A stretch of DNA of 41,638 nt from contig JABEVK010000008.1 in assembly GCA_013044245.1 (NCBI GenBank), positions 1 to 41,638 of the forward strand, in the 5' to 3' direction. The notes below the pieces were generated by a model. The model saw only the letters and a list, made by a program, of their open reading frames with translations, was not told where the DNA came from and ran no database searches. The translations under genes were made by a program, and so were the position numbers. Positions 4,908-15,961 of this stretch are shown piece after piece. Origin of the DNA: Spirochaetales bacterium. GTDB taxonomy: Bacteria; Spirochaetota; Spirochaetia; JABEVK01. The stretch's first letter is position 1; every line of letters starts with the position of its first letter.

Positions 4908-5516
4908 GTGGGAAAAATCACCAGATCAAATGAGGACTGGCTTGCGGCCTTAAGCCAAACCGGTCAAACCCGTGACCGGGCCCTGCGGGATCTTAGGTAC
5001 CTCCTCCTCAAAGGCCTTAACTTGGGCTTTCGAGGGCAACCTCCCCAAAAAGACCGCGAGTTTCACGCCCTGTTTGAGGATTTTGTCCAAGATGCCATGA
5101 TAACCATTCTTGAGCACTTAGCCGATTTTAAAGGGAATTCTAGGTTTACCACGTGGGCGCACAAAATTTGCCTGCGTAAGGCTTTTTCCGAGTTACGACG
5201 GCGACGTTGGAAAGACGTCTCGCTACAAAGCATGGTCGATATGGGGCATGAGCCGGAGGCTAAAAGGGAAGATTCCACCCAAGCTGTGCATACCAATACC
5301 ATGATGGAATGGCTTCACAAAGTCATGAACGATGAATTGTCCGAGAAACAGCGAATCGCTTTGCAAGCTGTTGCTTTACAAGGTATGCCCCTAGAAGAAG
5401 TAGCTCGGCGCATGGATTCTAACCGGAATTCGTTGTATAAATTATTACATGATGCTCGACTAAAGCTAAAGAAATGCCTAGAACGCGATGGCTTTAGCAC
5501 AGGGATGTCACCATGA
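4908..5516 (+). CDS. RNA polymerase ECF-type sigma factor
   Basis: FEDFVQDAMITILEHLADFKGNSRFTTWAHKICLRKAFSELRRRRWKDVSL (region 2) and LSEKQRIALQAVALQGMPLEEVARRMDSNRNSLYKLLHDARLKLKKCL (region 4); GTG start. Confidence 0.88.
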   Translation: MGKITRSNEDWLAALSQTGQTRDRALRDLRYLLLKGLNLGFRGQPPQKDREFHALFEDFVQDAMITILEHLADFKGNSRFTTWAHKICLRKAFSELRRRRWKDVSLQSMVDMGHEPEAKREDSTQAVHTNTMMEWLHKVMNDELSEKQRIALQAVALQGMPLEEVARRMDSNRNSLYKLLHDARLKLKKCLERDGFSTGMSP

Positions 5517-5737
5517 AAGAAAATTCCATTCAAAAAATCTCCCAGATGATCGCCAACACAGCACCCCAAGAACTGACTTGCGATGAGGTTTTTCAAGTTC
5601 TTCATCAATACGCAGATATCGTCAGCCGTGGTGAAGACGCCTCACAGCTTCTGCCTGATGTTCACCGTCATTTAGAGAGCTGTCCCGATTGCCGTGAGGA
5701 ATATGAGGCCCTCTTAAGAGCCATAAAAGCCAAGTAA
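5513..5737 (+). CDS. Small zinc-finger (ZAS-like) anti-sigma factor, no transmembrane segment
   Basis: HRHLESCPDCREEYEALLRAIKAK gives HX3CXXC; start overlaps the sigma stop. Confidence 0.75.
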   Translation: MKENSIQKISQMIANTAPQELTCDEVFQVLHQYADIVSRGEDASQLLPDVHRHLESCPDCREEYEALLRAIKAK

Positions 5738-5880: not shown

Positions 5881-7581
5881 TTAGCCAAAGGTAAAAGAGT
5901 AGACTTTCACGGGGCCTTGAAATTTCAAGGTTACGGTTCCCGAAATCTCGTGCGTACCCGAGTAAAGTTCATAGAGGCGGTCTTGATCGAGAGTAAGTAC
6001 TCCTCGGTGAACGTCTGGAGTACTCACGTTTTGTCCATTGACACTTACAAAAACAGTCTTTGAAGCGTCTTTGATAGGATTGATCACCAGATACACCTTT
6101 TGGGCGCGAAACTTGAGGGTGAGCGAAGCAGAGCCACGGTTCTCGGCGAACTGTTTACCGACCCGCCATTCGCCTGTTAGACCCCAATTCGAGCTCACCA
6201 TGCCCTGGGGAAGTCCGTAGTGAGCAAACTGATTGGGTACCATCGGCCCGGTTCCCACAAAGCCCGAGGCCCTTGCCCAGCCGAGGTAGGTTTCAGGAGT
6301 TCTATCGGCGCTTTGTGGCAGCGTTGACGGGATGGTCGTCGCTGCCAAAGTTTCGTGAGTCCCCAAGAGTTTCTGAATATTTCGTTCTGTCGCCGCATAC
6401 CCCCCCTCGCCAAAATGACTCTCGATAAGATTCCCGTCTTTATCAAAAAGGTATTCGGCCGGCCAGTATTGGTTATGGAAGGCATTCCAAATTCCGAACT
6501 TGTTGTCTTGGACAACAGGCCACCTCACACCAAGGTCTTTCACAGCCTGACGGACATTAGACTCCTTGTGTTCAAAGGCAAACTCGGGTGAGTGAACACC
6601 GACAATCACCAGACCTTTGTCTTGATACTTCTGGTACCAGGCTTTCAAGTACGGTAATGTCCGCAGGCAGTTGATGCACGAATACGTCCAAAAATCTACC
6701 AACACGACCTTTCCTCGCAGAGAGGCCATCGTTAAGGGCGGTGAATTGATCCAAACGCCCGAAGCATGGCTGAATGCACCCGCCGGAACCTGTGCAGAGC
6801 TTGCCGTCAGACTCATCTGTCGTTGCTCTAGCTCTTTTTTGACATCCTTTTGATTTTCGATGGCTGTGAGACCAGCTCCGTAGCTGGGGAACGTTTTCAA
6901 AAGCCACGTCTCGACACCACGGTCCCACCCCGCCAAGATCGCGATTCCGGTGACCAGCATGAGCACCCCAAAAATCCGCTGTATAGACCCCGAATGGCGG
7001 GTAAAAAAGGGAAAACGGTTCAGTAAGCTTCTTCCCCCTTGCAAGATCAGGAAGAGAGGGACCGCCGTTCCGGCTGAGTACGCCAATGTGATAAAGATGC
7101 TCCCCGCATCAACGGTCTGGCTGAGCGCCAATGAAACCACAGAAGCCATGATGGGGCCGACACAAGGGGTCCAGACCAAACCCAAACTGGCACCTAAAAG
7201 AATACCGCTAAAGAACCCGCTGGGGGTTTTCTTTCCAAACTTTGGGGCAGATTGCGAAGCGAACCGTCCACTGACCGCTGTGGCTGCCCTCATGAACCCG
7301 TCTTTAAGAACCGGTATAACTAAGACCAGACCAAAGAGTGTGATTAGCCCCGCGGCTATCCAGCGAAGCAGATCGGGGTCAAAATGCAACGCTTGGACCA
7401 AGGCTGACAGGGTTAAAGTAAACACTGTAAAGCTGGCAATAAAGCCCGTGACGACACCCCAAGGGCGGGCTTTGCCTCCCCCTGCCGAACTCCCCAGGAC
7501 GACGGGAAGGACGGGGAGGATACACGGCGAAAGGATCGTAACGATACCGGCCAAGAACGCGAAGCCAATCAACACTCCCAT
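5881..7581 (-). CDS. dipZ: DipZ-type fusion: CcdA-like membrane domain + TlpA-like thioredoxin + C-terminal beta-rich domain
   Basis: MGVLIGFAFLAGIVTILSPCILPVLPVVLGS...; VDFWTYSCINCLRTLPYLKAWYQKYQDKGLVIVGVHSPEF...; C-term LTLKFRAQKVYLVINPIKDASKTVFVSVNGQ. Confidence 0.88.
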   Translation of the reverse strand: MGVLIGFAFLAGIVTILSPCILPVLPVVLGSSAGGGKARPWGVVTGFIASFTVFTLTLSALVQALHFDPDLLRWIAAGLITLFGLVLVIPVLKDGFMRAATAVSGRFASQSAPKFGKKTPSGFFSGILLGASLGLVWTPCVGPIMASVVSLALSQTVDAGSIFITLAYSAGTAVPLFLILQGGRSLLNRFPFFTRHSGSIQRIFGVLMLVTGIAILAGWDRGVETWLLKTFPSYGAGLTAIENQKDVKKELEQRQMSLTASSAQVPAGAFSHASGVWINSPPLTMASLRGKVVLVDFWTYSCINCLRTLPYLKAWYQKYQDKGLVIVGVHSPEFAFEHKESNVRQAVKDLGVRWPVVQDNKFGIWNAFHNQYWPAEYLFDKDGNLIESHFGEGGYAATERNIQKLLGTHETLAATTIPSTLPQSADRTPETYLGWARASGFVGTGPMVPNQFAHYGLPQGMVSSNWGLTGEWRVGKQFAENRGSASLTLKFRAQKVYLVINPIKDASKTVFVSVNGQNVSTPDVHRGVLTLDQDRLYELYSGTHEISGTVTLKFQGPVKVYSFTFG

Positions 7582-7584
7582 AAT

Positions 7585-8043
7585 TTACGCCTTTGCCAAA
7601 ATGCTTTGTACGGTCGTCGTCCCCGACCAAATCTTCTTTTGGTTCCCCTGGGCGTCGATCTCAACGAAGGTATGTTGTTGCGTGATACCGTACTTTGTCT
7701 TAAGGGCCGAAGCCGTGTCGTAATTCACAACGACCAAACGAACGTTGTCGGGAATATCCTGATAATGGGCCTTGAGGTTTTTGTACGTTGCTTGGCAGGT
7801 CGGGCACCAGCTGGCGGCAAAAAAGTAAATCACCGTATGGTCCTTAGCCATGGCTTCGGCAGACGCCTGGGTCGTGAACGGGACAACCTCGGGAGCCATT
7901 CCCGAAAGATCATAGAAAGGCGAGGACCCGTTAGACATCGAATTGTTCGACATCGAGCCGCCCGAGGATTCCTGCTGGCCATTGGCCCAAGCCAGGCCAG
8001 CCATGGTTAACGCTACCAAGGTAGCCATCACCAATTTTTTCAT
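7585..8043 (-). CDS. Exported thioredoxin-like protein
   Basis: Signal MKKLVMATLVALTMAGLAWANGQQESSGG; FFAASWCPTCQATYKNL (CPTC). Confidence 0.8.
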   Translation of the reverse strand: MKKLVMATLVALTMAGLAWANGQQESSGGSMSNNSMSNGSSPFYDLSGMAPEVVPFTTQASAEAMAKDHTVIYFFAASWCPTCQATYKNLKAHYQDIPDNVRLVVVNYDTASALKTKYGITQQHTFVEIDAQGNQKKIWSGTTTVQSILAKA

Positions 8044-8187: not shown

Positions 8188-8547
8188 TTAGCCGCGGATC
8201 TGGAGAATCTTGAGAACAATAAGCTTCACAATGATCATTAAGGCTAGAACCCCACACAACCAAGGATCAAGAGTGTGGGTCAGGTCTTGGATCACCAGAA
8301 GTACCGAGAGTGCCGTAACCCCCGCCAGGTAAGCTACGCGGCTGGACACCGCCAAATGGTGAACGTCACGTTCGTCCTTCGGGTGTTCGCGAAAGACGAT
8401 CCCCGCATAGACAGCCATTGCTGCTGCAAAGATTCCTAGGACGAGCATTTGAAGTGCTGTAGGCATCAGCCAGTGAAAAGGATCGACCTTCAGTCCTAAG
8501 GTAATTAGAACAGCAAGGGCTACGAGAATTTCACTCGCCTTCTTCAT
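8188..8547 (-). CDS. Small membrane protein (DUF2178-like) partnered with the adjacent HTH regulator
   Basis: MKKASEILVALAVLITLGLK...four hydrophobic segments with FREHPKDERDVHHLAVSSR between; start set at MKKASE. Confidence 0.6.
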   Translation of the reverse strand: MKKASEILVALAVLITLGLKVDPFHWLMPTALQMLVLGIFAAAMAVYAGIVFREHPKDERDVHHLAVSSRVAYLAGVTALSVLLVIQDLTHTLDPWLCGVLALMIIVKLIVLKILQIRG

Positions 8548-8743
8548 AAAAGAGTTCCTCCACGGTAATTCCCAATACTTTGGCCAGGCGTAAGGCAAGC
8601 TGTACGGATGGGGTGTAATTGCCTTTCTCAATCGAAATAATTGTCTGCCTTGTTACACCCGTCTTCTGTGCCATTTCTTCTTGCGTCAGACCAACCTGAG
8701 AACGAAAGATTCTTAACTTATTCAAAAGCGCCGTATCTGGCAT
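8531..8743 (-). CDS. Xre-family HTH transcriptional regulator
   Basis: LRIFRSQVGLTQEEMAQKTGVTRQTIISIEKGNYTPSVQLALRLAKVLGITVEELF. Confidence 0.9.
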   Translation of the reverse strand: MPDTALLNKLRIFRSQVGLTQEEMAQKTGVTRQTIISIEKGNYTPSVQLALRLAKVLGITVEELFYEEGE

Positions 8744-8758
8744 TTCGTAAATGTAAAG

Positions 8759-9496
8759 TCAAGTTGACAAACTTGTCAAGGTGAACGGTATAGCCGTGCC
8801 AACGGGCTTCTTATGCAAAGCCAACACCCAATCGGCCAACAAAGCCAAAACCCCTGCCGTTAAAGCCCCCTGCAACAGATAACTGTAATTAAACTCACTG
8901 ATTCCGGCCAGAATGGGACGTCCTAGTCCCCCCGCCCCCATGGTGGCCCCCACCGTAGCGGTACCGATATTGATCATCACCGATGTTCTTAAACCCGAAC
9001 GAATTCCCGGCAAAGCCAAGGGGAAATCAACCTTGATCAGCTTTTCCCACCGTGAAAAGCCCAGGCCTGAAGCGGCGTCCTGGACCTCGACGCTCACTGA
9101 GTCAAACGCTGATAAGGCTCCGTGAAAAATGGGAAGGATTCCAAAGGCTACCAACGCCCAAAACACAGGGACTGTCCCGAAGCCCAGAAAAGGAACCATG
9201 AGGGCCAAAAAAGCCACGGGGGGTACCGTCTGCAAAAGTGTTCCCGTAGCGCCAAGCAAAGTTCTTGCACTGCCAGGGCGCCAATGAGCCCAAACAGCTC
9301 CCAGTAAACCAACCACCAGGGCCACGGCACTGGTTGAGGCGACCAAGGCGATGTGTTCCCCTGTAAGACCCCAGGGGGCTTCCAAAGGATACATCGCGGC
9401 CTGGGGGTCACCCAGAAGGAGCCTTAACGTGGCATTTAACGTGAAAGGGACCGACAAAACGCCCAGCAGGAGTGCCAAAACTAAACCCCGAAGCAT
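8759..9496 (-). CDS. ABC transporter permease, OpuCB/OsmW (osmoprotectant/betaine) family
   Basis: GATGTLLQTVPPVAFLALMVPFLGFGTVPVFWALVAFGILPIFHGALSAFDSVSVEVQDAASGLGFSRWEKLIKVDFPLALPGIRSGLRTSVMINIGTATVGATMGAGGLG. Confidence 0.88.
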   Translation of the reverse strand: MLRGLVLALLLGVLSVPFTLNATLRLLLGDPQAAMYPLEAPWGLTGEHIALVASTSAVALVVGLLGAVWAHWRPGSARTLLGATGTLLQTVPPVAFLALMVPFLGFGTVPVFWALVAFGILPIFHGALSAFDSVSVEVQDAASGLGFSRWEKLIKVDFPLALPGIRSGLRTSVMINIGTATVGATMGAGGLGRPILAGISEFNYSYLLQGALTAGVLALLADWVLALHKKPVGTAIPFTLTSLST

Positions 9497-10458
9497 CAGG
9501 ATTGATCCTCGGCCGCGAGTTTTTCAATGGCCTTTTTATAAAGTTGTCCCAGAACTTGGCTACCGTCGACCACATATAAGCTGTCTTTTCCCAAGGCGAC
9601 CATTAAGGAAAAGGCATCACGGAGATTCGTATTGTGTTGAACCTGGTCTAGGGAACCGACTTCGACCCCAGCCCCAAGAGGTTCCATTACGTCCTGCGCA
9701 CGGTAACGGATCAAACGTTTTAACGCGCGGTCAGCACCCAGAAACTCCTGAACAAAAGGGGTGGCCGGTGAGCGCAGAACCTCCGAAGGTGAGGCGTGCT
9801 GAACAAGCCTCCCTTGCTGTAAAACGAGGAGTCTGTCGGACAGCAGTACGGCTTCATCAAGATCATGGGTTACCAACAGAATAGTTTTTTTGACGTGTTT
9901 TTGAATCGACAGTAAAACTTTTTGAAGCCGATTTCTTTGAAGGGCATCAACAGCACCAAAAGGTTCGTCCATCAACAACAGAGGGGGGTCCCCAGCTAAG
10001 GCCCTGGCGATTCCCACCCGTTGAGCTTCCCCCCCTGAAAGTTCCGCTGGGAACTTTTTGCGAAAACGCGAAGGTTCTAACCCTACTAAATCCAGAACCT
10101 CGTCAATGCGGCTCTGTGTTCGTGCCGCTGGCCATTTTAAAAGCTGGGGAACTGCGGCCACGTTTTGAGCCACGGTCCAATGGGGAAAAAGCCCTACCCC
10201 TTGGATGCTGTAGCCCATCGATCGTCTCAAGGTTTCGGGCTCATACTGACTTAAAGGCTGATCCTGATAAAAGATCTTCCCCGTTGTCGGGTTAAGAAGT
10301 CGATTGACCAGACGGAGGGTTGTGGATTTTCCACAACCCGAGGGTCCTACGAGAACCGAGACTTCTCCTTCCTGCAAGGCAAAACTCAGATTCTGGACGG
10401 CGGGAATACCCTGGTAAAGAACCCCAACGTCTTCAAACTGCAGAACTGGCACGCACAA
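9496..10458 (-). CDS. ABC transporter ATP-binding protein, OpuCA/OsmV type with degenerate CBS-like tail
   Basis: LVGPSGCGKSTTLRLVNRL (Walker A), LSGGEAQRVGIARALAGDPPLLLMDEPFGAVD; C-term QHNTNLRDAFSLMVALGKDSLYVVDGSQVLGQL. Confidence 0.92.
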   Translation of the reverse strand: MCVPVLQFEDVGVLYQGIPAVQNLSFALQEGEVSVLVGPSGCGKSTTLRLVNRLLNPTTGKIFYQDQPLSQYEPETLRRSMGYSIQGVGLFPHWTVAQNVAAVPQLLKWPAARTQSRIDEVLDLVGLEPSRFRKKFPAELSGGEAQRVGIARALAGDPPLLLMDEPFGAVDALQRNRLQKVLLSIQKHVKKTILLVTHDLDEAVLLSDRLLVLQQGRLVQHASPSEVLRSPATPFVQEFLGADRALKRLIRYRAQDVMEPLGAGVEVGSLDQVQHNTNLRDAFSLMVALGKDSLYVVDGSQVLGQLYKKAIEKLAAEDQS

Positions 10459-11602
10459 GCCTCCTTTGGCTGGTTTTTACCAAAAGTTTGAGCAGTTGAT
10501 CAGCAACCCCTGAAACGATCAGAACGAGTAAAACTCCCAGCACGACCATATCTTGCGAAGTCTGTCCAATGCCTTGAAATATAAACCACCCCAACCCTCC
10601 ACCACCGATCAAGGGGGCAAGTGTCGCATTCCCTACGGTTTGCACAAAAGCTAATCGAAAGCCGGCGAGTGCCGAGGGCAAAGCCAAAGGAAGTTCAACC
10701 TTCCAAAAAACATTTGAAGAAGAGAACCCGAGACCATAAGCGGCGTGAATGACCTCGGGGGGAACCATAGCCAGACCCGCTTGAACGGCCGAGGCCAGGG
10801 GTAAGATAGCCCATAAGGTGAGCGCAATTTCGGCGGGAGTTGGCCCGATGCCCCCTACTCCCCACACTTGAAGGCCGGGAAAGGCCCGAACAAGGGCCGC
10901 CAAAGGGATCATTAAAAGCCCAAACAGAGCGATCGAAGGAATGGTTTGAATCACTGAGGCCATTTGGAGCAAGACTTTTCCCCAGCGGAACCTAAAGCTC
11001 GCCACGCCTAAAGGGAAGCCCAAGATCACGGCCCCAGCCATTGCCCCTGCGGTCAAACTCAGGTGTTGCCACAGCTTCTGGCCAACCAGGGAGGGGTCTG
11101 CCTCTTTAACTACAGATATAGCCGAACAACCGCCCATCACGAAAGTAATCGTTGCCACACCAAGAACAACCAGTCGTAAAAAGATACCAAGCCGCGAAGC
11201 TTTTGTGTTGACCAGGGCCCGGTAAACGGCAAGCCCTTGAACAAGCCAAAAGCCCAAACTCGGTGAGATCCACAGCTCTTGTGACAGCCCGGTGCCCCCA
11301 GGCCAGGTCAGGGTGGGCAAACACCACAGCAGAAAGGCGAGAAGAAATAAAAAAAACTCCTGAAAAACTCCCGCCAAAAAGATCAAAACTATTACCACCA
11401 GCAGACCTGACCAAAGGTTGGGGTAAGTGGTCAAAAGCTTGAAGAAATACACGGGGGGACCGCTGGTGACACGATTAGGGTCAAGCTGGTAAAGCGGGAG
11501 AAAAACAAAAATCAAGGCAACGGCAATGCCCCAGACTGCCGTACGCCCGTTCAATAAAGTGAATTGCCCGTTCAGCGAAGAAAGCCTTTCTCTGTCAGCC
11601 AT
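10433..11602 (-). CDS. ABC transporter permease, OsmY/YehY type with N-terminal transmembrane extension
   Basis: Long hydrophobic N-terminal half, then ASVIQTIPSIALFGLLMIPLAAL..IHAAYGLGFSSSNVFWKVELPLALPSALAGFRLAFVQTVGNATLAPLIGGGGLG. Confidence 0.88.
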   Translation of the reverse strand: MADRERLSSLNGQFTLLNGRTAVWGIAVALIFVFLPLYQLDPNRVTSGPPVYFFKLLTTYPNLWSGLLVVIVLIFLAGVFQEFFLFLLAFLLWCLPTLTWPGGTGLSQELWISPSLGFWLVQGLAVYRALVNTKASRLGIFLRLVVLGVATITFVMGGCSAISVVKEADPSLVGQKLWQHLSLTAGAMAGAVILGFPLGVASFRFRWGKVLLQMASVIQTIPSIALFGLLMIPLAALVRAFPGLQVWGVGGIGPTPAEIALTLWAILPLASAVQAGLAMVPPEVIHAAYGLGFSSSNVFWKVELPLALPSALAGFRLAFVQTVGNATLAPLIGGGGLGWFIFQGIGQTSQDMVVLGVLLVLIVSGVADQLLKLLVKTSQRRLVRASSAV

Positions 11603-12522
11603 TGCCTAGCCACTGTACCAGAATCCTGGCCTTCGACGACGATTTTTGCGTTCAGAGTTTGAAGAGTTCTTAAATCCAAAAGGGCAAAAACGGGGGCAAG
11701 GTCTGCGCTCAGGTCGGGATACTTCAACAGCACCGCTTGCCTCACCAACGGTGCTGGCTGATACACGGGCTGAACGTTTTTATCATCGGTCAGAACAACA
11801 AGATGAAAAGCTGCCAGTTGGCCATCGGTACCGTACGCCATAGCCGCGTTGACCCCGTTCGTTCCCTCGGCACAGGCTTTCTCGGTCGTCGCCGTGTTAC
11901 CTCCCGAAAGGGTCAAAACTTGTTGGGGTTCAAGGTGAAAGCCGTAGGCGGCCTCAAATGAAGGCAATGCCGCAGGACTGTTGACGAACTCATCAGATCC
12001 AGCCAGTTTGAAATACCCGCCCTTGTTGACGTAGGCGGCTAAATCAGAAAGCGTCGCAAGGTGGGCCTTTTGCGCCAGTTGGTCACTGACAGCAATGGCC
12101 CAGGTATTATCTGCAGGGGCCGCTGGCAACCACACAAGCTTGTTTTGTGCCAAATCCAGGTCGTGGACTCGTTGCCAGGCTTGAGAAGCGTTTTTCCACA
12201 CCGACTGGTTGGCCTGATGGAAAAAATAGGCACCATTTCCCGTGTATTCGGGATAGATGTCGATTTGGCCTTCGAGTAAAGCTTTGCGAACAATCGCGGT
12301 ACCACCCAACTGAAGACGGTCAACGACGTGGTAACCATGCTGAATCAGAACCAAACGAATCATCTGCCCCAGCAGTCCACCCTCGGTATCCATTTTTGAC
12401 CCTACGACGATCGTTTTGTTCTGGACAGCCGATTGACAGGAAGTTAGGGCCAAGCCCAGAACCGCCATCGTTAAGCTTAAGGCCAGCACGGATGCATGAA
12501 GTTTGCCAACAGTCTTGCTCAT
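11572..12522 (-). CDS. ABC transporter substrate-binding lipoprotein, OsmF/OpuCC (quaternary amine) family
   Basis: Lipoprotein signal ALSLTMAVLGLALTSCQS; IVVGSKMDTEGGLLGQMIRLVLIQHGYHVVDRLQLGGTAIVRKALLEGQIDIYPEYTGNGAYFF; start at MSKTV. Confidence 0.88.
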   Translation of the reverse strand: MSKTVGKLHASVLALSLTMAVLGLALTSCQSAVQNKTIVVGSKMDTEGGLLGQMIRLVLIQHGYHVVDRLQLGGTAIVRKALLEGQIDIYPEYTGNGAYFFHQANQSVWKNASQAWQRVHDLDLAQNKLVWLPAAPADNTWAIAVSDQLAQKAHLATLSDLAAYVNKGGYFKLAGSDEFVNSPAALPSFEAAYGFHLEPQQVLTLSGGNTATTEKACAEGTNGVNAAMAYGTDGQLAAFHLVVLTDDKNVQPVYQPAPLVRQAVLLKYPDLSADLAPVFALLDLRTLQTLNAKIVVEGQDSGTVARQWLTEKGFLR

Positions 12523-12563
12523 GGGGGTAACTCCCGTCTTGATATTTCCCTTTCTTATAAACA

Positions 12564-12845
12564 TCAGGGTTGAATGTCGACACCTTTCCAAAAGGCGTAG
12601 TACCCGCGAATCTCGCTTGCCGCGGCCTTGGGATCGGGATAATACCAACACGCATCAATATTCTGACCCTCGGCAATTTTAACCGTCTTGTAGCTGGCAA
12701 GCCCCTTCCAGGGACAAATCGAGGTCGTTGAGCTATCGATAAAGTGTTGGGCTACTAAGGATTCTGGGGGAAAGTAATGATTTCCCTCCACCACGATGGT
12801 TTTGTCGCTTTCTGCCAACAAAACACCTTTCCATAAAGCTTTCAT
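12564..12845 (-). CDS. DUF427 domain protein
   Basis: MKALWKGVLLAESDKTIVVEGNHYFPPESL..TSICPWKGLASYKTV..ACWYYPDPKAAASEIRGYYAFWKGVDIQ. Confidence 0.88.
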   Translation of the reverse strand: MKALWKGVLLAESDKTIVVEGNHYFPPESLVAQHFIDSSTTSICPWKGLASYKTVKIAEGQNIDACWYYPDPKAAASEIRGYYAFWKGVDIQP

Positions 12846-12873
12846 GATCCGCTCCTTTTGTTAAGCATTTTTT

Positions 12874-14124
12874 TCAAAGTTCACGAGCCAGACGAATTCC
12901 TGAAAATTGCCAGCAAGCCCAGGTCGGGAAAAAGTTTCTGTACGTTTTGCGGATATGGCCTTCTGGTGTCGCACACGACCCCCCGCGCAAAACGTACTGA
13001 TTGACCATAAACTTACCGTTGTATTCGCCCACAGCTCCGGGGGCCGCTTGGTAGCCCGGGTATGGGGAATAGCTCGACGAGGTCCATTCCCAAGCGTCTC
13101 CCAGCATTTGAACCAATTCTCCTTCGGGAGCGGGACGGGGGTGATACTCGCCGCTATCGGCAAAATGGCCAGTTAAAGGCACCGATTGGGCGGCATTTTC
13201 CCATTCGGCTTCTGTGGGCAAGCGGGCGTGAGCCCAACGGGCAAAAGCGTCAGCTTCAAAGTATCCGACGTGGACAACGGGCCTAACGGGGTCTAATTCC
13301 CCTAACCCCCAAAGGGTGAACTCATACCATTTTCCGTCTTGCTTGCGCCAGTATAAAGGTTGGGTTCGTTTTGATTTTTGACACCAATCCCAGCCTTCGG
13401 CCAACCAATACTGAGGGTCTTGATACCCGCCTTGGTCAACAAACTGGGCATACTCGGCGTTCGTTGTCAGCCGTGACGCCAACTGATAGGCGTTCACAAA
13501 CACCCGATGCTGGGGTGTTTCATTGTCAAAAGCAAACCCCTCTCCCGTGTGCCCTAGGTGCACCATCCCTTCGGGGAAGCTTTTCCAGCTCAAGGCGGCA
13601 CCTTGCGTTCGAGAAGGTGTCCGAGACAAGTCCACCTCGTGGTAAGCCGGGGCCAAAGGGTTGTACGAAAAAAGGAGCTTTTGGTCGGTCAAAAGAAGTT
13701 CTTGGTGCTGCTGTTCGTGGTTTAAACCCAATTCCAACAAATTATGAAACTCAGGATCTTTCCACACCCGTTCAGGAAGGTTTAAAAGTCGCTGATCGAC
13801 GTTCCGACGGTAGTGAAGTACTTGGTCAAGACTGGGGCGTGTCAACATTCCCCGCTGAGGCCTGGGGTGTTTTTCACCAACGGCGTTGTAATAGGAATTG
13901 AACAAAACCCGAAAGTTTACATCAAAAGGGTGAAAAGGCTTTTCCCATCGTTCCAGTAAAAATGTTTCAAAAAACCAGGTGGTGTGAGCCAGGTTCCATT
14001 TGGTGGGACTGGCCTCTTCGGCAGGTTGAACACAGCAGTCTTCGGCAGAAAGCGGGCTGGCTAAGGCTACCGACTGGGAACGAACCTTCCGGTAAAACTC
14101 TTGGGCTTTTTCAAAGCTTAGCAT
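12874..14124 (-). CDS. egtB: EgtB-type iron-dependent sulfoxide synthase (ergothioneine biosynthesis)
   Basis: DinB-like N-term NLAHTTWFFETFLLERW; LELGLNHEQQHQELLLTD; FGE-sulfatase-like C-term RLPTEAEWENAA..MLGDAWEWTSSSYSPYPGY..VLRGGSCATPEGHIRKTYRNFF. Confidence 0.92.
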   Translation of the reverse strand: MLSFEKAQEFYRKVRSQSVALASPLSAEDCCVQPAEEASPTKWNLAHTTWFFETFLLERWEKPFHPFDVNFRVLFNSYYNAVGEKHPRPQRGMLTRPSLDQVLHYRRNVDQRLLNLPERVWKDPEFHNLLELGLNHEQQHQELLLTDQKLLFSYNPLAPAYHEVDLSRTPSRTQGAALSWKSFPEGMVHLGHTGEGFAFDNETPQHRVFVNAYQLASRLTTNAEYAQFVDQGGYQDPQYWLAEGWDWCQKSKRTQPLYWRKQDGKWYEFTLWGLGELDPVRPVVHVGYFEADAFARWAHARLPTEAEWENAAQSVPLTGHFADSGEYHPRPAPEGELVQMLGDAWEWTSSSYSPYPGYQAAPGAVGEYNGKFMVNQYVLRGGSCATPEGHIRKTYRNFFPTWACWQFSGIRLAREL

Positions 14125-15080
14125 GCCAGTCTCCCCACTCTCCTGGGCATGGAACTCGGCCGAGCCAAGACCATCGTGTACCAGTTTTTTTGATCCGTCC
14201 AGGGAGTTTGACTGTCAAAGCCCGCACGCTTTAACAAGCTAGCAAAGGCATCAGGGGTGTACTTGTAGCTGTTCTCCGTGTGAATTCTTTCTCCTTTTGC
14301 AAACGCGCGTTGCCCCCCTGGCCACGAGATACTGTTTTCACGCCGTGCTTCAAGGTGCATTTCTATGCGCGACTGGGCTTGATTGAACCAGGCGACATGA
14401 CGCCAATCCTCCAACTGAAAATTGGCACCGATTAACTTGTTCACGTGCGAAAGGATATTCAAATTGAAGGCGGCAGTGACCCCTTCCTTATCGTTGTAGG
14501 CGGCCTCAAGAACGCTGACAGACTTAACTAAATCTACCCCAATCAATAATGATCCTTGCTCGTCTAAATGCTTTCGTAACTGAGACAAAAGTTTCACGGC
14601 TTGATCGGGATCAAAATTCCCAATCGAAGAACCCGGGTAGAAGATTAACCTGCGGTCACGAGGAATATCGCTGGGAAGGGTGATTTCTTTGGTGATATCC
14701 CCGGCGATGGCACGGGCCTCGGTTTCTGGTAGAACTTTTTTGAGCCGATTGACACCCGCCGTCAAGTAATCAGCAGAAATATCGACGCCAACAAAGCGGT
14801 GGGGGCGAAGCAAGCGGCAGAGGTGTTCGGCTTTTTCACACCCCCCCGCGCCAGGCTCTATAACAGTGGCGCATTCACCAACAGCCTCTGAAATGGCCCC
14901 TGAGTTTTGCTCCAAGATTTCTCGTTCGGTTCTTGTGGGGTAGTATTCCGTCAAACCTGTAATTTTATTGAAAAGAACTGAGCCCTTTTGGTCGTAAAAA
15001 AACTTGGGGGCCAGGCTTGCCAGGGGGTTTTTTAAGCCTTTGACAATCTCAGTTGCAATACCAGTGTCAAGATGTTTCAT
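14118..15080 (-). CDS. egtD: L-histidine N-alpha-methyltransferase EgtD
   Basis: LFNKITGLTEYYPTRTEREIL..VIEPGAGGCEKAEHLL-type motif, FVGVDISADYL, LIFYPGSSIGNFDP, IHTENSYKYTPDAFASLLKRAGF. Confidence 0.93.
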   Translation of the reverse strand: MKHLDTGIATEIVKGLKNPLASLAPKFFYDQKGSVLFNKITGLTEYYPTRTEREILEQNSGAISEAVGECATVIEPGAGGCEKAEHLCRLLRPHRFVGVDISADYLTAGVNRLKKVLPETEARAIAGDITKEITLPSDIPRDRRLIFYPGSSIGNFDPDQAVKLLSQLRKHLDEQGSLLIGVDLVKSVSVLEAAYNDKEGVTAAFNLNILSHVNKLIGANFQLEDWRHVAWFNQAQSRIEMHLEARRENSISWPGGQRAFAKGERIHTENSYKYTPDAFASLLKRAGFDSQTPWTDQKNWYTMVLARPSSMPRRVGRLAC

Positions 15081-15274: not shown

Positions 15275-15610
15275 TCAAATGTTAGATTCTTGGTACTGAA
15301 ACTGAAATCTTGTGATTTTTGGAAGAATATCAATGAGACGGTTGGATTCCTCCTCCAAATCAAAATCGTCCTGGAGTCCGAGCCAGAATTCTGCAGAGGT
15401 TCCAAAGAAACTCTTAAGGCGAAGAGCTGTATCGGCGGTAATTCTCCTACGACCGTGAATTATTTCAGAGATTCTTGTCTGAGGAATACCCGTTTCTTTC
15501 GAAAGTTTATAGGCGGAAATATTCATGGGTTCAAGAAATTCTTTTAGCAGAATTTCTCCAGGATGAATATTCGGTAGTTTTTCGTCAGTGATAGTCGCTA
15601 ATTCTGACAC
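15275..15610 (-). CDS. higA: HigA-family antitoxin (HTH)
   Basis: LPNIHPGEILLKEFLEPMNISAYKLSKETGIPQTRISEIIHGRRRITADTALRLKSFFGTSAEFWLGLQDDFDLE; probable GTG start overlapping the toxin stop. Confidence 0.85.
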   Translation of the reverse strand: MSELATITDEKLPNIHPGEILLKEFLEPMNISAYKLSKETGIPQTRISEIIHGRRRITADTALRLKSFFGTSAEFWLGLQDDFDLEEESNRLIDILPKITRFQFQYQESNI

Positions 15611-15866
15611 GATCGGCCTCCCCGTTCTTCCATTCAAATACTATTCTCCATTGGCTGGTTATTCGAATGCTGTATAACCCAACCAGATTACCTTTTAGCA
15701 GTTCCAGCCGATTGCCAGGTGGAACTCTCAAGTCCTCGACAATTTGCGCATTGTTGATCATTCTAAGTTTCCGACGGGCGGTGTCCTGGATCTCGACCGG
15801 AAATCTTCGGGAACGCATACCATTCCAGATTGATTCAATTTCTTGGTCGTCAAATGAACGAATCAC
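15585..15866 (-). CDS. higB: HigB/RelE-family toxin
   Basis: VIRSFDDQEIESIWNGMRSRRFPVEIQDTARRKLRMINNAQIVEDLRVPPGNRLELLKGNLVGLYSIRITSQWRIVFEWKNGEADRVRISDYH; probable GTG start at 15866. Confidence 0.87.
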   Translation of the reverse strand: MIRSFDDQEIESIWNGMRSRRFPVEIQDTARRKLRMINNAQIVEDLRVPPGNRLELLKGNLVGLYSIRITSQWRIVFEWKNGEADRVRISDYH

Positions 15867-15922
15867 GTATCCTATACTAACGCATGGCGTAAGTAAGGTC
15901 AAGTTCGAAGCGTTTTCCTCTC

Positions 15923-15944
15923 TGTCAACATAGAAGTCACCTGA
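15923..15944. repeat. 22-bp dispersed repeat copy A: CTGTCAACATAGAAGTCACCTG
   Basis: Second copy at 33733-33754 differs at 2 of 22 positions. Confidence 0.75.
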
Positions 15945-15961
15945 CAACGCCAGCAGTCATA

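Follow-up and report, generated by a model that had tools for sequence, protein, structure and literature searches.

The question raised by this locus, which lies in a 41,638-nucleotide stretch of a Spirochaetales genome (the whole of which is referred to here as the window), is whether an ABC importer of the osmoprotectant type, encoded in one operon with the ergothioneine biosynthesis genes egtD and egtB and a small DUF427 protein, takes up ergothioneine or its precursor hercynine, as had been proposed in the original prediction. The operon context suggests that the importer and the DUF427 protein also handle ergothioneine. The seven genes, all intact, are in operon order:

14118..15080, minus strand: egtD, histidine N-alpha-methyltransferase (histidine to hercynine), 320 aa (TIGR03438 equivalog)
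12874..14124, minus strand: egtB, sulfoxide synthase, cysteine-type (like Chloracidobacterium EgtB), 416 aa (TIGR03440)
12564..12845, minus strand: DUF427 protein (PF04248), short single-domain subfamily, 93 aa (Pfam, 6e-28)
11572..12522, minus strand: substrate-binding lipoprotein (SBP), OsmF/YehZ family, 316 aa, lipobox LTSC29 (NF049931)
10433..11602, minus strand: long permease (YehY-like), 389 aa (PF00528; position and order as in yehZYXW)
9496..10452, minus strand: ATPase (YehX/ProV-like), about 318 aa, probable GTG start behind AAAGGAGG (PF00005)
8759..9496, minus strand: short permease (YehW-like), 245 aa (PF00528)

Each reading frame is in frame with zero internal stops, and the genes follow one another closely: egtD overlaps egtB by 7 nt, gaps of 28 nt and 41 nt separate egtB from DUF427 and DUF427 from the SBP gene, and the transporter genes overlap by 31 nt (SBP/first permease), 20 nt (first permease/ATPase) and 1 nt (ATPase/second permease). 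The predicted same-strand operon and the overlaps among its transporter genes were thus borne out by measurement. The other proposed boundaries were correct for the egtD/egtB overlap and the two gaps, but the SBP start has been corrected from GTG 12651 to ATG 12522, that of the ATPase is probably GTG 10452, and a helix-turn-helix (HTH) gene beginning 15 nt after the second permease had been missed. Because the terminator-like matches on the minus strand within the operon are weak and their total (12) lies below the shuffled mean (16.7), a single transcript across the seven genes is likely; to this extent the proposal of one transcript without an internal terminator stands, co-transcription being what we infer from it. 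When the sequences preceding egtD in both sister species were aligned, no convincing common promoter site emerged. An assembly chimera is ruled out, since the independently assembled sister genome carries the same seven genes in the order egtD-egtB-SBP-permease-ATPase-permease-DUF427, with egtDB joined to the transporter and DUF427 moved to the 3' end.

The identities proposed for the two biosynthetic genes were confirmed. EgtD scores 359 bits against TIGR03438 (cut-off 291) and, aligned to the solved M. smegmatis-type EgtD (4pim), keeps the histidine/SAM motifs EYYPTRTE, GSSIGN and TENS, and EgtB scores 545 bits against TIGR03440 (cut-off 360). The best solved relatives of EgtB are 6qki, 6o6l and 8qf6 (431 bits), compared with only 135 bits for the mycobacterial EgtB 4x8b, and by this greater closeness to the Chloracidobacterium enzyme it is assigned to the cysteine type. 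A dedicated C-S lyase, EgtE, was not found in the 94% complete genome, in which the best match to TIGR04343 reaches 40 bits against a cut-off of 400; generic lyases may act in its place.

The assignment of the transporter to the OsmF/OpuC type also holds. Its SBP scores 416 bits against the OsmF equivalog NF049931 (cut-off 400), which the sister and family members pass as well, is 52-55% identical to the YehZ structures 4wep, 5teu and 4nd9 (the same entries being its nearest folds), and falls with them into an OsmF/YehZ clade with a support of 100/100, outside of which lie HpEgtU and AfProX. The order SBP-long permease-ATPase-short permease is that of yehZYXW; the best NCBIfam match of the ATPase is the proV subfamily TIGR01186, below that model's cut-off. 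Judged by these comparisons, the SBP is an OsmF/YehZ protein and not an EgtU. It is the sole OpuAC-type SBP of the genome, from which a BCCT transporter is absent. In published assays, OsmF/YehZ proteins bound glycine betaine only at the millimolar level and no other osmolyte (PMC5894108, PMC8371380), and because this affinity is so low, a non-osmoprotectant ligand is possible.

The more specific link between the SBP and EgtU did not survive: model score, tree and signature residues all reject its membership, with HpEgtU across a 100/100 split and the EgtU signature G244/F293/Y337 replaced by D45/Y93/A137. It has to be noted that HpEgtU, solved with bound ergothioneine (8dp6/8dp7), also has none of the three, so that their absence does not exclude ergothioneine binding. 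An aromatic cage (Y93/W141/Y230/Y254/N139) is still present in the pocket, together with K43 and E178, and D45, Y93, N139, W141 and E178 are common to 94/94 OsmFs compared. E178, which matches E375 of EgtU, was rejected as evidence of an ergothioneine pocket, because the glycine-betaine binder AfProX and all 94 OsmFs carry Glu at the same position. By its residues the pocket is an ordinary OsmF pocket, compatible with quaternary amines and uninformative about ergothioneine.

This unchanged pocket and the OsmF membership of the SBP speak for a different reading, in which the importer takes up another quaternary amine or another solute and shares the operon with egtDB through stress protection and not through a substrate; we consider this quite possible, while leaning against it. 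Consistent with that, E. coli YehZYXW is described as a betaine-specific carrier of glycine betaine with low affinity (Lang 2015, as cited in PMC7824335), and its Brucella relative as being under general stress response control (Herrou 2017, according to the citing papers PMC7824335 and PMC8371380). OsmF without egt genes is also the rule, and an ECF sigma factor and thiol-redox genes adjoin the operon, the flanking features being:

8531..8743, minus strand: XRE-type HTH regulator (PF01381)
5881..8043, minus strand: extracytoplasmic thiol-redox pair, a Trx-like protein (7585-8043) and a DsbD_TM/CcdA-TlpA fusion (5881-7581) (Pfam)
4908..5516, plus strand: ECF sigma factor (Sigma70_r2/r4)
5513..5737, plus strand: small HxxxCxxC anti-sigma-like protein (sequence motif; no Pfam match)

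Near the sister operon the redox pair (51% and 62% identity to the L032 genes) and the sigma factor (47% identity to the L032 sigma) are present as well. The HTH gene, which has its own promoter-like site at 8779-8750 (10/12 match) and a terminator-like site at 8166-8146, is probably a separate transcription unit; an operator-like 16-base palindrome, TTGACAA-N2-TTGTCAA, overlaps this promoter-like site at 8764-8779, and the window contains a single copy where 0 would be expected. What tells against stress co-regulation alone is that it predicts neither the independent linkage of DUF427 to egtBD and to OsmF nor a second type of ABC importer beside egtBD-DUF427, both described below; moreover, the published osmolyte affinities are too weak for physiology.

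Conservation of the gene order was found within the genus but not outside of it. egtD is present in 2/60 relatives, and egtB together with OsmF in 1/218 sampled genomes of the phylum (co-occurrence p 0.55). In other phyla, for which 50 OsmF-bearing genomes gave the background rates, only 3/79 loci have egtB or egtD 10 kb or less from OsmF, and never in one operon. Three arrangements rejected as operons have egtB-egtD 5.5 kb upstream with dnaK in between (L058), an EgtB/SenA-like match on the opposite strand (L073) and an EgtD match about 5 kb downstream (L095). The four transporter genes stand alone at 52/80 OsmF loci, and 79 have no egt operon with OsmF. Relatives, phylum sample and other-phyla loci together reject a wide conservation; the fusion of egtDB with OsmF is restricted to one genus.

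Two loci without egt genes, L033 and L034, place the transporter before egtDB in the family, and the first of them, from the same family, carries DUF427-SBP-permease-ATPase-permease. This is exactly the state expected before an insertion and, with 58/60 relatives lacking egtD, it favours an accident in which horizontally acquired egtDB landed upstream of an older DUF427-OsmF operon and shares its transcription without functional coupling. We regard such an accident as rather improbable, given that the unit persists in two species whose proteins have diverged to about 75-78% identity, although DUF427 has moved, and that other families of the phylum also show DUF427 linked to egtBD. DUF427 seems in addition to have been kept or regained, because that of G001 (53% identity to the window's protein) groups less closely with it than that of G003 (67%).

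The proposal of DUF427 as an extra component is supported, and was strengthened by independent neighborhoods. The protein scores 97 bits against PF04248 (cut-off 22), and its AlphaFold model (pLDDT 98) matches the DUF427 structure 3djm (TM 0.8), with a beta-tent fold. It falls within a clade of the short subfamily that is linked to egt or OsmF: five other genomes that lack OsmF have a member next to egtBD, and in genomes lacking egtB (L033, L060, L043) members stand next to OsmF. Among the 218 genomes of the phylum, DUF427 (19 genomes) and EgtB (15) occur together in 11 (p 9e-11, kinship ignored); the DUF427 gene and egtB are no more than 2 kb apart in 6 genomes, and DUF427 is near OsmF in 4/5 relatives holding both, against 0.02 expected in each case (kinship ignored). 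In one other genus, egtB-egtD-DUF427 and the genes of another OpuC-type ABC importer are arranged divergently. To our knowledge, no function is known for any DUF427 member, and literature searches found no paper for DUF427 with ergothioneine and, for ergothioneine with OsmF, nothing beyond an unrelated nutrition review.

With no EgtE equivalog in the genome, DUF427 might itself supply a missing step, e.g. the handling of hercynylcysteine sulfoxide or oxidized ergothioneine, the transporter being incidental. It shares its fold with the sulfoxide reductase MsrB (PMC4287342), its invariant Cys44 sits in C-x-[WY]-K-G, and in L033 and L060 it adjoins a thioredoxin-reductase-like gene. That reading is nevertheless very improbable, as DUF427 has no known ligand or activity and its presence beside OsmF where egtB is absent means that it cannot be a biosynthetic step only.

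The explanation that we favor, tentatively and at somewhat below an even chance, is that the operon is a module for making or importing ergothioneine (or hercynine), DUF427 acting as a common cytosolic partner and the substrate being deduced from context. EgtD would trimethylate histidine to hercynine, which the cysteine-type EgtB would join with cysteine as the sulfoxide, and, because no dedicated EgtE was found, an unlinked C-S lyase is proposed to finish the pathway. The OsmF/YehZYXW-type importer would bring in a trimethylammonium betaine of the pathway, either ergothioneine or hercynine for EgtB to finish, import being the presumed direction in vivo, and DUF427 may bind or act on that betaine or its oxidized form, as suggested by the same subfamily accompanying egtBD and OsmF separately. 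For the module speak the intact overlapping operon with complete EgtD and EgtB, the sister's retention of egtDB with the transporter, the sole OpuAC-type SBP without BCCT, the recurrent DUF427 linkages and second OpuC-type importer, and the aromatic cage combined with millimolar glycine betaine binding; against it speak the general OsmF pocket, the confinement to one genus, the older age of the transporter in the family and the reported cargo of E. coli YehZYXW. The wider claim, that OsmF/YehZ importers in at least this lineage import ergothioneine or hercynine and that the short DUF427 subfamily handles ergothioneine, is unlikely as things stand. If true, it would give DUF427 its first function and bring the making and the uptake of ergothioneine together in a single organism. 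Importers of the OsmF/YehZ family occur widely, and, several crystal structures notwithstanding, no physiological ligand has emerged from the published assays; a genome with OsmF and DUF427 in an ergothioneine operon offers a specific and cheap ligand test for each.

Compared with the cysteine-type pathway of Chloracidobacterium and Methylobacterium, EgtB here is closest to 6qki and EgtA/EgtC are not needed, but EgtE was not found in this genome and egtDB is joined to a transporter and DUF427. With the low-affinity betaine importer OsmF/YehZYXW of E. coli and Brucella the system shares its four genes, their order and the pocket residues; it differs in that the operon opens with egtD-egtB-DUF427, with no osmotic or general-stress control known here. 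The EgtU/EgtUV importers of S. pneumoniae and H. pylori, described in bacteria that scavenge and do not make ergothioneine, have in common with it the OpuAC/F-III SBP superfamily, the aromatic cage and, should the favored explanation be right, the same job, whereas the SBP here is a separate protein and not a permease fusion, with about 29% identity and in another clade. Finally, the DUF427 protein resembles the known structure 3djm in fold and family, and is set apart by a short subfamily that stands repeatedly beside egtBD or OsmF.

On the reverse strand at 8759-15080, all seven open reading frames are in frame and unbroken, with the spacing that had been described, and curated models identify EgtD, EgtB, DUF427, an OsmF-type substrate-binding lipoprotein (SBP), two permeases and an ATPase, which bears out the layout and gene identities of the original prediction. 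The start codon of the SBP gene is ATG 12522, and the protein carries an LTSC lipobox. Strong terminators are, as had been noted, absent within the operon, and its genes are probably read as one transcript. The HTH gene at 8531-8743 (-), which begins 15 nt after the operon's last gene, is probably a separate unit because it has a promoter-like site of its own, together with a perfect palindrome, and a terminator-like hairpin lies past its partner gene. The palindrome, which occurs once in the window and not at all in shuffled sequence, is likely the autoregulatory operator of this gene. The flanking features, with their counterparts in the sister-species locus L032, are:

8764-8779: the palindrome, TTGACAA-N2-TTGTCAA, which overlaps the HTH gene's promoter-like site
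4908-5737 (+); L032:14663-15674 (-): ECF sigma factor and small HxxxCxxC anti-sigma-like protein
5881-8043 (-); L032:15801-17154 (+): TlpA-like thioredoxin and DsbD/CcdA-TlpA fusion
15275-15947 (-): overlapping genes for a HigB-like toxin and an XRE antitoxin-like protein, just upstream of egtD

The last two genes are likely a HigBA pair. In both window and sister species the sigma/anti-sigma-like pair lies near the egt operon (sigma factors 47% identical) and the thioredoxin and DsbD/CcdA-TlpA genes adjoin it; at locus L144, egtB-egtD is directly preceded by an ECF sigma gene and, downstream of the latter, a small gene with no Pfam match, possibly a redox-stress regulon.

The window's EgtD retains the motifs that, in solved EgtD structures, line the binding sites for histidine and SAM, and the window's EgtB scores 431 bits against the Chloracidobacterium enzyme versus 135 against mycobacterial EgtB. 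The Chloracidobacterium-type class takes cysteine directly as substrate, and EgtA and EgtC are therefore unnecessary. The Methylobacterium case of such direct use is summarised in PMC12689799. No EgtE equivalog was found in the window's genome (94% complete), and a generic PLP lyase is assumed to perform this final step.

Conservation of the gene order holds only in part. It is kept in the sister genome (G001, a Spirochaetales MAG, contig JABEVL010000088), with DUF427 moved to the end (egtD-egtB-SBP-permease-ATPase-permease-DUF427), so that the operon persists in two species; among 79 OsmF loci outside the phylum, none joins egt genes and OsmF in a single operon. Within the family, G003 has DUF427-SBP-permease-ATPase-permease without egt genes, and G005 the transporter genes only, close to a contig end. 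egtD is present in 2 of 60 relatives; of 218 phylum genomes, 15 carry EgtB above the cut-off and 11 carry OsmF, the window's genome being the only one with both. The most economical history has egtDB joining, in the window's genus, an OsmF or DUF427-OsmF operon that was already there. Outside the phylum, egt-type genes lie near OsmF (flanks up to 9 kb) in 3/79 loci (Oligoflexia, Rhizobacter, Polaromonas). In a set of 50 genomes with OsmF, EgtB-like genes occur in 10 (above cut-off in 7) and DUF427 in 22, so enrichment is weak and a wide rule absent. In two Betaproteobacteria (L073:3677-6737, L095:15476-18888), EgtB/SenA-like or EgtD matches sit beside a PhnCD-like ABC transporter, possibly a further pathway-transport pairing.

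The suggestion that DUF427 is an extra pathway component emerges as the best-supported new lead, owing to its recurrent linkage to egt and OsmF genes. We know of no DUF427 member with an established function. The protein is predicted with high confidence (pLDDT 98) as a beta-tent, with Cys44, Trp5, Trp67, Tyr52 and Tyr69 invariant; this fold is common to DUF427, MsrB and cereblon (PMC4287342). Of the 218 phylum genomes, 19 have DUF427, and EgtB is present in 11 of these (p 9e-11, ignoring phylogeny). In five genomes without OsmF (G157, G209, G201, G225, G096) egtB and DUF427 lie within about 1.2 kb, in operon, convergent or divergent arrangement, and in three without egtB (G003, G123, G041) DUF427 adjoins OsmF. 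A 52-domain tree resolves one short-protein subfamily (n=27, support 99/97) holding 5/5 egt-linked and 3/4 OsmF-linked genes together with those of the window and G001; linkage is 10/27 inside it versus 1/25 elsewhere (p 0.005). The window's DUF427 is nearest to that of G003 (67%), the sister-species gene reaching only 53%. DUF427 also adjoins a thioredoxin-reductase-like gene at the same-family locus L033 (10646-13609), followed by a sulfur-transport (YeeE/YedE) gene pair, and on the G123 contig (L060:145-1661), where the reductase carries a fused glutaredoxin domain.

The proposed analogy of the SBP to the ergothioneine importer EgtU is unsupported at family level. The SBP exceeds the OsmF equivalog cut-off and groups with the YehZ proteins of E. 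coli and Brucella and with Agrobacterium ProX in a clade of full support that leaves out HpEgtU and AfProX; its model best matches YehZ-type structures (E 1e-36 vs 1e-26 for EgtUC), and the EgtU residue signature is missing, so that membership of the EgtU family was rejected. HpEgtU likewise lacks the signature, yet PDB 8dp7 is titled as EGT-bound, and the missing signature therefore does not settle the substrate. Mapped through the published EgtU/AfProX residues (PMC9732360), the pocket comprises K43, D45, Y93, N96, A137, N139, W141, E178, S182, Y230 and Y254, of which D45, Y93, A137, N139, W141 and E178 are invariant in 94/94 aligned OsmF sequences, and it retains an aromatic cage suited to a trimethylammonium group. 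YehZ itself, according to passages in PMC5894108, PMC8371380 and PMC7824335 on Herrou 2017 and Lang 2015, has millimolar affinity for glycine betaine and leaves other osmolytes unbound. A generic stress-linked betaine importer is nearly as likely as one for ergothioneine or hercynine; neither a second OpuAC-type SBP nor a BCCT was found in the window's genome. An ergothioneine or hercynine importer would supply a cell also able to make ergothioneine, and DUF427 may act on or hold the imported compound.

A second importer type stands beside these genes in G201 and G225, which belong to one other genus of the phylum:

L138:10441-12803; L139:600-2809: OpuC-type ABC transporter (ATPase and SBP-permease fusion), divergent from an egtB-egtD-DUF427 operon

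Counting the window, two lineages thus have a quaternary-amine importer next to egtBD-DUF427, and the two transporters are not orthologous. By its gene neighbourhood the L138/L139 transporter is a second candidate ergothioneine importer; its SBP belongs to an OpuC-type group other than OsmF, closest to AfProX and HpEgtU.
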